Source of the DNA: Planctomycetota bacterium
Lineage (GTDB): Bacteria > Planctomycetota > Planctomycetia > Pirellulales > Lacipirellulaceae
Assembly: GCA_013152205.1 (NCBI GenBank)
Contig: JAADGV010000054.1
Coordinates: 1-64,000, forward strand
Direction of reading: 5' to 3'
DNA: 64,000 bases
The notes under the pieces are model-generated. The model was not told where the DNA came from, did no database searches, and was given only the letters and a program-made list of their open reading frames with translations. This document shows, one piece after another, positions 9,225-61,329 of the stretch. Numbering within the stretch: the stretch's first letter is position 1; each line of letters opens with the position of its first letter. The position numbers and the translations under genes are program-made.

Positions 9225-9399
9225 CTGGACGATTACAAAGTCACAATTGCACGAGATCTATCGCAATAAATTGAACCATAGAGGACACGGAGGGCACAGA
9301 GGAAAGCTGTTTTTCAGGCACTCTGTGCTACTCCGTGTTCTCTGTGGTTATTCTTTTTCCTAAACTTTGGTCGACCGCCCCGACTTTGCAACCCTTCTG
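9225..9399. mobile_element. MITE-like element, copy 1 (hairpin interior type A)
   Basis: The left terminal repeat CTGGACGATTACAAAGTC (9225-9242) is inverted relative to the right one GACTTTGCAACCCTTCTG (9382-9399). The flanks ATTTCCATCT (9215-9224) and TTTTCCATTT (9401-9410) look like an imperfect 10-bp target duplication. The interior holds a hairpin from 'accatagaggacacggagggcacagag' and 'ctctgtgctactccgtgttctctgtggt' arms. It contains no gene. It fills most of the gap between two minus-strand genes. Confidence 0.75.
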
Positions 9400-10874: not shown

Positions 10875-12104
10875 CTAGGGCGATTCGAAAGTGAAAATGT
10901 CGCCCTGACGGGTCGAGAAATAGATCTCGCCCCGATCGTCTTCGCCAAAGGTGATGATGGGAATGCCGTTCTTGCGAATCATACGATTTGCTGTCACTTG
11001 GCCAGCCTCTTCGTCGTACCATAAGGCCCAGATTTGGCCAGCCACGTAGTCGGCATAGAGATAGGCCCCCTGAAGTTCCGGGGTGCGACTGCCGCGATAG
11101 ACCGAGCCGCCTATAATCGACTTGCCAACTTCGTGGTGATATTCCCAAATGGGGTCGATCAGTCGGGCTTGCTCCTCAGCTCCCCCAGGCCCGAAGGAGT
11201 GGCGGCCTTCTCGCAAATTCCACCCGTAGTTGCCGCCGCGCTGGATGAGGTTGATTTCCTCCCAGAAGTCTTGGCCAACATCGGCAGCCCAACAGGTGCC
11301 CGTCTTGCGATCGAAACTCAATCGCCAGACGTTGCGAAGGCCATACGCCCAGATCTCATGACGGGCCAGTTTTTGCCCGGCGAATGGGTTGTCTGCTGGA
11401 ATGCCGTACTGAAGGCCTTCGTCCTTGCGATCGACATCGATACGCAAGATCGAGGCGAGCAGCGACTGTAGATTCTGGCCGTTCATGTAAGGATCGCTAC
11501 CACCTCCCCCATCGCCTAGGCAGATGTAGAGGTAGCCATCCGGGCCAAACTCGATCGTTCCACCGTTATGATTCCAGTGCGGCTGAGGGATGCGCAAGAG
11601 AACTTCTTCGCTGTCGGGGTCAGCAACATTGGGATCGGTTTTAGAAACTCGAAAGCGAGAAACAACCGACGTGTGCTGGCCAGCTTCCCCCGGCGTTTTG
11701 GAATAGTAGACAAAAAACTCGCCATTGGTTTTATACTGAGGATGAAAAGCGAAGCCGAGCAATCCCTTTTCATTCTGCTTGGGGTCGTAGACGACGCGAT
11801 CTCGAAGGTCGAGAAACGTGGTGACGCCCTTTGCTTGCGGGTCGTTGGGCATCACATGGATCGAGCCATGCTGCGAGGCGATAAACAGACGATTGGTTCC
11901 ATCCTGGGCGCCAGTGAGTGCTACGGGCAACACTTCGTGGTTGAGGCCCTCTTCCACACCCGTCAGCCAATCGGGCCATTGCAGTTGAGGAAACGCCGAG
12001 ACACAACGGACGTTGAGTGGGCGAATGTCGATCTCGTCGCCGCAGGCCCGGGGCGAACAGATAAGCGTCAGTAGAGCGTAGCAGCCAAAGATTAGCCGTT
12101 GCAT
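10875..12104 (-). CDS. Soluble PQQ-dependent glucose/sorbosone dehydrogenase-like protein
   Basis: The 409-residue exported protein (signal MQRLIFGCYALLTLICSPRACG) matches the six-bladed soluble glucose dehydrogenase / sorbosone dehydrogenase fold. Conserved stretches are GLLGFAFHPQYKTNGEFFVYY (about residues 114-134), HNGGTIEFGPDGYLYICLGDGG (about 179-200, carrying the catalytic His and Ca-site residues), YGLRNVWRLSFD (about 256) and GNYGWNLREG (about 289). Family members oxidise aldoses with PQQ and Ca2+ in the periplasm, although many planctomycete homologues have unknown substrates. AGGAGATACCC precedes the ATG. It is probably part of the exported sugar-oxidation set spanning 5-12 kb. Confidence 0.88.
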   Translation of the reverse strand: MQRLIFGCYALLTLICSPRACGDEIDIRPLNVRCVSAFPQLQWPDWLTGVEEGLNHEVLPVALTGAQDGTNRLFIASQHGSIHVMPNDPQAKGVTTFLDLRDRVVYDPKQNEKGLLGFAFHPQYKTNGEFFVYYSKTPGEAGQHTSVVSRFRVSKTDPNVADPDSEEVLLRIPQPHWNHNGGTIEFGPDGYLYICLGDGGGGSDPYMNGQNLQSLLASILRIDVDRKDEGLQYGIPADNPFAGQKLARHEIWAYGLRNVWRLSFDRKTGTCWAADVGQDFWEEINLIQRGGNYGWNLREGRHSFGPGGAEEQARLIDPIWEYHHEVGKSIIGGSVYRGSRTPELQGAYLYADYVAGQIWALWYDEEAGQVTANRMIRKNGIPIITFGEDDRGEIYFSTRQGDIFTFESP

Positions 12105-12184
12105 GTGGGTATCTCCTAAGTACGTGAGCGAGTTGGTACTTTAGAGAACTCGGGGACGGTCGTCAAATAGTGGCACATCCAGCG

Positions 12185-12283
12185 CAGGACGATAGCAAAG
12201 TCATGCTAGCCGCGAGCGGAAGCCGCGGTCGAATCTGAAAAAACCGCGGCTACTACAGAATCAGCGACTTTGCAATCGTCCTG
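12185..12283. mobile_element. MITE-like element, copy 2 (interior type B) with perfect 10-bp target duplication
   Basis: The 18-bp terminal inverted repeats CAGGACGATAGCAAAGTC (12185-12202) and GACTTTGCAATCGTCCTG (12266-12283) differ at one position. A perfect 10-bp direct repeat ACATCCAGCG flanks the element (12175-12184 and 12284-12293). The 99-bp element has no gene; its interior is a short palindrome (gcggaagccgcgg / ccgcggct). This is the clearest insertion of the family and sits in the promoter-proximal gap between the divergent dehydrogenase and hemB genes. Confidence 0.88.
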
Positions 12284-12326
12284 ACATCCAGCGTATTGCA
12301 CCTCAGAAAGTGGCTGGCCCCCATAG

Positions 12327-13424
<1,098 letters not shown>

Positions 13425-13649: not shown

Positions 13650-13701
13650 CCCTGGGCGTCGAGTATGTATTGGATAGACGTCGTTATAACGATAGTTAGG
13701 T
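13650..13701 (+). other. attI-like integron recombination site, copy 1
   Basis: This block of about 50 bp ends in the core GTTAGGT (13695-13701), where the first cassette joins. It matches a block at 61276-61329 (other strand) over about 45 bp with few differences, and identity stops at the GTTA of the core in both copies, as expected for a site-specific crossover point. The second copy lies directly before an integron-integrase-like start, which identifies the block as attI rather than attC. An inverse core-like TATAACG lies just upstream of GTTAGGT. No integrase gene is adjacent at this copy. Confidence 0.7.
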
Positions 13702-30209: not shown

Positions 30210-30293
30210 CCAGCAGGGTCCGTCGGGCTGTAACCAAACTCCCCATCCTACCGGAAACAGGTCGGTCTGTGCCAGAGGCTGAGCAGAGGGCAG

Positions 30294-30402
30294 CAGGATT
30301 GCAAAGTCACTGATTTTTGTAGTAGCTGCGGGCGGAAGCCGCAGTTTTTTCAGATTCGACCGCAGCTTCCGCCTGCGGCTATAACGGAACCAATCCTCCT
30401 AA
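30294..30402. mobile_element. MITE-like element, copy 3 (interior type B, opposite orientation to copy 2)
   Basis: The left end reads CAGGATTGCAAAGTC, the family end minus a few bases. The interior is the reverse complement of copy 2 (gattcgaccgcagcttccgc versus gcggaagccgcggtcgaatc), with about 10 extra bases. The right end is degenerate (CCAATCCTCCT). CAGAGG lies on both sides (30284 and 30403), possibly a decayed target duplication. No gene is inside. The rest of the gene-free gap, 30403-30682, shows nothing recognisable. Confidence 0.65.
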
Positions 30403-32480: not shown

Positions 32481-32521
32481 AGCTTTGTCAAAGCTTAATT
32501 TTGGGATTAGCCCCAATGCGG

Positions 32522-32581
32522 ATTCGTTAGCGGTGTCGGCCACGACATCCTCCCGCAGAACACTCTTGCGAACAGAAAAAG
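32522..32581. repeat. 60-bp dispersed repeat, copy 1
   Basis: It begins attcgttagcggtgtcggcc and ends gaacagaaaaag, and is repeated with only two or so differences at 36519-36578. It lies just after the stop codon of the 31386 gene. It has no coding role that I can support. Confidence 0.8.
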
Positions 32582-33189: not shown

Positions 33190-33367
33190 CAGGGGAACGG
33201 CAAAGTCACAAATTCACAAAAATAAACCGCAACAATTTGAACCACAGAGGACACGGAGGGCACGGAGAAAATCTATTTTTTAAGGCACTCTGTGCTACTC
33301 CGTGTCCTCGGTGGTTATTCTTTTTTCCTAAACTTTGGTCGATCGTACCGACTTTGCAGTTGTCCTG
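33190..33367. mobile_element. MITE-like element, copy 4 (hairpin interior type A)
   Basis: The left terminal repeat is CAGGGGAACGGCAAAGTC (33190-33207) and the right one GACTTTGCAGTTGTCCTG (33350-33367). The flanking direct repeats AATGTGGAGT (33180-33189) and GATGTGGAGT (33368-33377) match at 9 of 10 positions. The interior is nearly the same as copy 1 (ttgaaccacagaggacacgg ... ctactccgtgtcctc ... ttcctaaactttggtcga). No gene is inside. The remaining bases up to 33672 hold no recognised feature. Confidence 0.85.
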
Positions 33368-36295: not shown

Positions 36296-36518
36296 CTCGC
36301 AGTCCTTTCAAAGTGGCAAGGTGCCACGTTAGCAAAGAACCCGCCGAACGAAAAGTCGACCCTCGAAATAAGGGAGCCCTCAACCAAGCCAACCAGCCTC
36401 CTATTGAGGTATGCGCCAGGAAAACGACAGGCCGACCAACGGGAGTGCCGGATTTAGCAAGTGAGTGCTTGGAGCAAGTAAAGTTTCTGGCGCATACCTT
36501 AATAAAAGTCCAAAGTGC

Positions 36519-36578
36519 ATTCGTTAGCGGTGTCGGCCACGACATCCTCCCGCAGAACACTCCTGCAAACAGAAAAAG
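36519..36578. repeat. 60-bp dispersed repeat, copy 2
   Basis: A near-identical copy of 32522-32581 in the same orientation, ending just before the stop codon of the DUF1501 gene at 36584. It begins attcgttagcggtgtcggcc. Confidence 0.8.
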
Positions 36579-41269: not shown

Positions 41270-41322
41270 CTTGATTGCTCCTTGCAAACACGGTTACAGA
41301 ATTGGGTTCTTCAGGTATTTTA

Positions 41323-41430
41323 GTGGCTGAACATTGCTTAGTGGCTGAACATTGCTTAGTGGCTGAACATTGCTTAGTGGCTGAACATTGCTTAGTGGCT
41401 GAACATCGCTTAGTGGCTGAACATCGCATC
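41323..41430. repeat. Six tandem copies of an 18-bp unit
   Basis: The unit gtggctgaacattgctta is repeated head-to-tail: four identical copies (41323-41394), then one with atc for att (41395-41412), then a last one ending catc (41413-41430). It lies 5' of the DUF1553 gene, within its leader or promoter. There are no spacers, so it is not a CRISPR array. The count of repeats is probably variable between strains. Confidence 0.95.
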
Positions 41431-41770
41431 GAAGCAGCAAAGCTGCTTCTGCCCCAAAGGGGCAAAACATCATAGCCTGGGGCAAGGCAAGCGAGCATCG
41501 CGAGGCTTGCCGCCGCCCTAGGTTAATTTGCGTCAATGCCTTCGGCCGAGTTTCAGTTCGGCCAACTCACCGGCACGCAGCCGAGGCCGAAACTCATCCG
41601 CGGCTTGATTTCGTCCTCGGCAACGCTCCGTTGTTAAATCACGCTGTCCTCTCGGACAATTGTTCGGTTGCTTACTAACCCAGGGCGACGCCAACCTTTG
41701 CTGCGCTTCGGTTGGCTCTGCCCTGGGCTTTCATATTTTGCCCTTTTCAGGGCATTTGGTCCCCTAGCCA
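41431..41770. repeat. Composite palindromic non-coding repeat region
   Basis: This gene-free stretch is made of small palindromes: gcagcaaagctgc, gccccaaaggggc, ggccgagtttcagttcggcc, and a long fold-back in which CCCAGGGC and CCAACC (41680-41696) pair with GGTTGG and GCCCTGGG (41710-41730). It ends with gcccttttcagggc. Such REP-like composites occur in many planctomycete and Bacteroidetes intergenic regions. No transposase is present. Confidence 0.6.
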
Positions 41771-61088: not shown

Positions 61089-61281
61089 CCTAAACTCCGG
61101 TCAGCATCCGTTCTGAGAATACCGGCGGCTTCCAACCGCCGAGCCTTTCTTCATCCCAAGTCGATTGAATTTCCTTGCAGAGTTCTGCAATCTCTTCGAG
61201 CGTGGGCAAGTAGACGACCCGGCTGCCTCTGTTGCCCGGGGTGCGCCTACTAGATAGTCGTCCCTGATGTTGAGGGCATAA
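61089..61281 (-). pseudogene. Remnant of a small conserved planctomycete gene next to attI copy 2
   Basis: An open frame without any start codon runs from the attI core to a TAG at 61089. Its meaningful part reads TPGNRGSRVVYLPTLEEI, then ELCKEIQSTWDEERLGGW, ending FSERMLTGV. 'RVVYLPTxEEI...C..IQ..W' resembles a family of about 60-residue planctomycete hypothetical proteins. It may be a first cassette or chromosomal DNA joined at the core. It lacks a start and is probably dead. Confidence 0.5.
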
Positions 61282-61329
61282 CTATAATTATAACGACGTC
61301 TATCCAATACATACTGGACGCCCTGGGGG
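61276..61329 (-). other. attI-like integron recombination site, copy 2
   Basis: On the minus strand, a block ending in the core GTTATGC (61276-61282) matches the 13650-13698 block over about 45 bp; the shared region includes gtatgtattggatagacg and tcgttataa. Homology ends at GTTA, as at a recombination crossover. On its other side, six bases away, a divergent integron-integrase-like reading frame starts, which is the standard intI/attI geometry. Confidence 0.75.

Follow-up and report, generated by a model that had tools for sequence, protein, structure and literature searches.

Unrelated palindromic interiors between ISAs1-type ends in a family of putative MITEs from Planctomycetes and Chloroflexi

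The DNA analysed here (the window) is a stretch of 64,000 nucleotides, contig C89:1-64000 of a planctomycete assembly of 4.6 Mb in 130 contigs. A short repeated element, hereafter element B, lies in the intergenic region upstream of a gene that is presumably hemB. The features of the locus are as follows.

10875-12104, minus strand: divergent upstream neighbour, which we take from its translation to encode a PQQ-dependent sugar dehydrogenase-like protein
12175-12184, no strand: left copy of the target duplication ACATCCAGCG, read from the sequence
12185-12202, plus strand: left terminal inverted repeat CAGGACGATAGCAAAGTC, with one mismatch to the family consensus CAGGACGATTGCAAAGTC
12203-12265, plus strand: interior of element B, GC-rich palindrome TAGCCGCGAGCGGAAGCCGCGG / TCGAATCTGAAAAAA / CCGCGGCTACTACA, 13 bp shorter in one arm than in the 112-bp siblings
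12266-12283, plus strand: right terminal inverted repeat GACTTTGCAATCGTCCTG, identical to the consensus
12284-12293, no strand: right copy of the target duplication ACATCCAGCG, read from the sequence
12412-13424, plus strand: downstream neighbour, presumably hemB (delta-aminolevulinate dehydratase), assigned from its translation and not by a family search; the ORF as listed begins at TTG, 12369

Element B measures 99 bp (12185-12283); its 18-bp inverted ends match at 17 of 18 positions and an exact 10/10 duplication stands on either side, as the first-pass annotation had described. It encodes no transposase: every ORF of at least 100 aa at the locus is that of a neighbouring gene. Comparison with siblings (e.g., L244:17358-17469) identifies it as the local 112-bp type minus 13 bp of one arm, the gap being placed between CGCGGCT repeats. 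Both forms fold strongly (z = -7.3 for element B and -10.9 for the 112-bp type); trimmed of its ends, the interior of element B (L272) yields a z of -1.2, which is not exceptional because one arm has been lost. The insertion had also been called recent, a dating reached by inference: the perfect duplication and the near-perfect ends speak for it, the 13-bp internal deletion and the lack of any active transposase in view speak against it. Downstream of the element, a motif at 12323-12355 (GATTTTACGG..GATAATGGAAGTC in relatives) is conserved upstream of hemB across the genus and looks like a promoter; the insertion lies ∼40 bp upstream of it.

The window contains seven end-like sites, versus 0.05 expected from shuffled sequences. 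Besides element B, the window contains three related elements.

9225-9399, plus strand: related MITE with the same ends (2 and 3 mismatches), a CACAGAGGACACGGAG palindrome interior and a 9/11 duplication
30291-30401, minus strand: decayed sibling of element B with the same GC-rich palindrome; the right boundary is approximate
33190-33367, plus strand: related MITE with the same ends (5 and 2 mismatches), a CACAGAGGACACGGAG palindrome interior and a 9/10 duplication (AATGTGGAGT / GATGTGGAGT)

The elements at 9.2 and 33.2 kb bear out the earlier observation that they share their ends with element B and differ from it in their interior. The decayed sibling, which had been overlooked, retains an intact end at 30291-30308; its other end is damaged and a clean duplication is absent.

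Other repeats were noted in the window. A dispersed 69-nt repeat, GCGGTGTCGGCCACGACATCCTCCCGCAGAACACTC, occurs at 32513-32581 and 36510-36578, and a further copy adjoins a AGAGCATTTC element near 15.2 kb of L243. A tandem repeat of an 18-bp unit, TTAGTGGCTGAACATTGC, a multiple of three bases, spans 41302-41445 in ∼6 copies, and 13650-13698 and 61279-61327 form an inverted repeat pair of 49 nt, 92% complementary and 47 kb apart, with TATGTATTGGATAGACGTCGTTATAACGA.

Genome-wide (4.6 Mb), half-sites resembling the ends with at most 3 mismatches number 262 (141 + 121), compared to 2 (1 + 1) for a reversed-pattern control. BLAST with element B gave 85 matches at E≤10, a figure that includes matches of the palindrome to itself, at about 40 distinct places. 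In an 862-kb genome sample, made of long contigs picked irrespective of matches, clean duplications of 10-11 bp flank 9 of 18 end pairs (50%), versus 0.3% when the flanks are shuffled, a result that supports the first-pass assignment of the element to the MITEs; about half of the end pairs have no duplication, which fits decay. Over all loci of the genome, 28 elements have an acceptable duplication, 17 of 10 bp and 7 of 11 bp. All species compared together, duplications of 10 bp (46 cases) outnumber those of 11 bp (14) and 9 bp (6). The duplicated sequence varies from copy to copy: the 46 ten-bp duplications lack a strong consensus, with few Ts at position 1 and few As at position 10. All copies examined look intergenic. 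When 392 genomes sampled in the phylum were searched for exact end pairs 80-110 bp apart, only the genome of the window was positive; exact pairs being rare elsewhere, the distribution is patchy.

The first-pass annotation had proposed empty sites as a check of the boundaries. At the element B locus, none of 13 same-genus genomes provided an orthologous empty site: relatives do have the hemB region, but hemB identity is at most 80% within the genus and the upstream DNA is unalignable, so that the empty site is not recoverable. Disrupted genes yielded no clear case either. Such sites were however found within the same genome for two sibling insertions (L006, C104:4070-4180, and L019, C100:33728-33838), which interrupt a dispersed palindromic repeat. 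The uninterrupted target repeat (L269:16175-16238) carries a single CCCCGGAGGCAAGTGTGCCTCC, where the L006 counterpart reads CGGAGGCAAG, the element, and then CGGAGGCCAG. This uninterrupted copy confirms the boundaries of the family and the duplication.

We then turn to the transposase. Among the matches listed, the exact 18-mer occurs in Dehalococcoidia, other Chloroflexi, several planctomycete groups and isolated other lineages. End pairs 1,221-1,243 bp apart were identified in Dehalococcoidia (L096, L098, L109, L134, L146, L152 and L155) and in Tautonia sociabilis (L099). The duplications around these 1.2-kb elements are mostly of 9-11 bp, and the genes they contain reach 85-98 bits with the NF033564 ISAs1 transposase profile (cut-off 70) and match PF13808 as well. 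These are full-length insertion sequences with the ends of element B, such as the first-pass annotation had suggested seeking: exactly the same 18-mers bound the ISAs1 elements of L096, L098, L109, L146, L152 and L155, and the left-end variant of L099 (GATAGC) is that of element B. Within the same genus (G008), the left end of an internally deleted ISAs1 element (L214:1864-2460) is exact and its right end deviates at 4 positions; the element keeps N- and C-terminal parts of the transposase, the middle being absent. A second relic (L215) has one recognisable end, and in a same-family genome (G029, L211) an exact end is followed by decayed PF13808 sequence. An independent search for inverted ends and duplications around ISAs1 genes showed that the ends of other ISAs1 elements of the order are of the related form CAGG...TGC (CAGGGCAATCGCATCTAA, CAGGGCGATTGCGCCATA and CAGGAGAACTGCAAAGTC), with duplications of 9-11 bp. 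Given the full elements, the relics and the related ends in the order, the assignment to the ISAs1 family is firm.

PF13808 and NF033564 profile searches of the window's own assembly detected no ISAs1 transposase, and the elements look orphaned. Multi-copy insertion sequences are often missing from draft assemblies; as this one is 93% complete, the parent was either lost or left out of the draft. The same orphan pattern is seen in G045, a genome of the same order and another family, in which 170 end-like sites were counted and no ISAs1 transposase was detected.

At several loci (L096:3191-4347, L109, L146, L155, L099, L205 and L206) the coding sequence of the ISAs1 transposase is divided between two frames, a layout unlike the usual single ORF of ISAs1. 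The two frames meet at a run of As followed by a G (e.g., GAAAAAAAGCGGGG), and this junction resembles a site of translational frameshifting conserved in this ISAs1 subgroup.

When the interiors of elements with duplications were clustered, the cores that share these ends proved unrelated to one another. The GC-rich palindrome and the CACAGAGGACACGGAG palindrome occur in the genome of the window and its relatives, and a GGCGTCTCCCGACGCC type has six copies in the own genome; a further type is CCGCCAAGACGCC, and Chloroflexi contribute the types TCATTCTGAGCGAAGCGAAG and CATCCTGAGCTTGTCGAAGG. The largest cluster joins the GC-rich and CACAGAGGACACGGAG types by single linkage, partly via composite elements, and the two sequences are distinct. 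At least six unrelated palindromes are thus found between the same ends in Planctomycetes and Chloroflexi, and the first-pass proposal of one set of ends with different cargo holds more broadly, over two phyla, than it had been made. With the ends removed, the fold z lies below -3 in 82% of 60 interiors (median -5.8), compared to 11% of flanking pieces (median -0.3). No similarity was detected at E 1e-3 between the interiors and 12 ISAs1 sequences, so the elements are not simple deletion derivatives. An interior derived from the parent insertion sequence is typical of such derivatives and is not required of all MITEs.

The association between palindromes and ends was also inspected from the side of the palindromes. 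The 862-kb sample contains 17 copies of the GC-rich palindrome, and an ISAs1-type end could be recognised on one or both sides of 15 of them. For the CACAGAG-type motif, 21 of 31 matches in the own genome lie more than 160 bp from any such end; some of these are decayed copies, and several lie in another repeat with the ends AGAGCATTTCCT...AGGAACTGCTCT. Since the CACAGAG-type palindrome occurs in both repeats, a similar palindrome is borne by two kinds of ends. Copies of the AGAGCATTTCCT..AGGAACTGCTCT repeat are located at L243:15311, L271:17263, L242:13106, L247:1689 and L258:13516; those with both ends (L243 and L271) apparently lie between TA dinucleotides. Finally, a composite (L262:612-1060) holds a GC-rich element and a CACAGAG element within one outer 10/11 duplication, which suggests that cargo could change when the outer ends of two adjoining elements are used.

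On this evidence, element B is very probably a MITE, a non-autonomous DNA transposon, that belongs to the ISAs1 family and has a GC-rich hairpin interior. The first-pass annotation had named an IS4-like parent, and a MITE moved by an IS4-type or other DDE_Tnp_1 transposase would also leave duplications of this size, as some IS4 subgroups produce duplications of 9-12 bp; the genome moreover has nine DDE_Tnp_1 (PF01609) matches. However, no DDE_Tnp_1 transposase of the genome is bounded by the ends at up to 4 mismatches, and the two end sites near DDE_Tnp_1 genes form no pair around a transposase. As the transposases encoded by full elements with identical ends are of the ISAs1 family, and a decayed ISAs1 copy is present in the same genus, the parent is corrected to ISAs1 and we regard IS4-type mobilisation as very improbable.

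An equally slim chance is left to the proposal that RAYT (Y1) transposases have dispersed the sequence as a REP/BIME-type palindrome, its inverted ends being the outer stem. The interior does contain GC-rich stem-loops starting with GTAG, like the GTAG REPs, a super-family reported in Planctomycetes (PMC3733652), and six Y1_Tnp genes are present in the genome. But no such palindrome lies within 1.5 kb of five of these six and the one near the sixth belongs to an end-bounded element, the 10-bp duplications and the empty sites are unexpected for REPs, and at least one ISAs1-type end accompanies most copies of the palindrome in the sample (the 15 of 17 given above). The very strong folding and the intergenic position of all copies examined could also befit a conserved regulatory or structural hairpin, such as a terminator or an RNA element, copied by recombination and not by transposition. 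Here the duplications that vary by copy, the uninterrupted target repeats and the transposase genes bounded by identical ends all weigh against it, and neither an Rfam match nor a terminator-like site was found; this reading is the least probable of all, close to negligible.

For the ISAs1-family MITE, a plausible course of events can be outlined. A DDE transposase of the ISAs1 family, acting in trans, would bind the inverted ends of 18 bp and cut there. Once the element had entered a staggered 10-bp cut in the intergenic DNA ahead of hemB, filling of the gaps would yield the ACATCCAGCG duplication. In element B one arm of the hairpin is 13 bp short, which slippage between the two CGCGGCT repeats probably caused. 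Interiors would be exchanged between ISAs1-type ends, possibly in the manner suggested by the composite. It is conceivable, although on balance doubtful, that the long palindromes are interchangeable cargo modules, the ISAs1-type ends having repeatedly taken up unrelated, lineage-specific hairpins; at least one palindrome type, CCACAGAG..ACACCGAGG, is also found between unrelated ends with an apparent TA duplication (AGAGCATTTCCT).

Several known systems resemble parts of this arrangement. Element B has the identical or related CAGG... 18-bp ends and the 9-11-bp duplications of the ISAs1 family (NF033564 / PF13808); it differs from it by lacking a transposase gene and by an interior dissimilar to the ISAs1 elements tested. 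With bacterial MITEs such as NEMIS/Correia, Nezha, RUP and ERIC (PMC3733652) the family shares a length of 70-300 bp, inverted ends of 15-30 bp, a non-coding and intergenic nature and a strong hairpin, whereas here one end set encloses at least six unrelated palindromic cores in two phyla. TIMEs and mosaic non-autonomous Tn3 elements (PMC4133298) are likewise short and non-autonomous, with ends able to mobilise different DNA; they use Tn3-family ends and transposition, and are neither ISAs1-related nor palindrome-based. The GTAG REP palindromes (PMC3733652), reported in the group to which Planctomycetes belong, have GTAG-tagged GC-rich stem-loops resembling the interior of element B, but here ISAs1-type ends and target duplications enclose the palindrome and RAYT genes are not associated with it. 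In the literature searched, we found no paper on ISAs1 MITEs and no paper on bacterial repeats that prints these palindromes.

ISAs1 MITEs are ordinary in principle, and the interest of this family lies in its interchangeable hairpin core. A large and apparently undescribed repeat family of a planctomycete can be attributed to a definite family of transposases, and natural empty sites prove its boundaries. If the palindromes are indeed cargo modules, several widespread palindromic repeats of bacteria would be hitch-hikers of transposon ends, and hairpin cargo may be favoured since it aids transposition or shields neighbouring genes. The question raised is why the cargo is almost always a palindrome. 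The finding of different hairpins between one set of ISAs1 ends, in Planctomycetes as in Chloroflexi, provides an explanation, open to testing, of the spread of some common intergenic palindromes.
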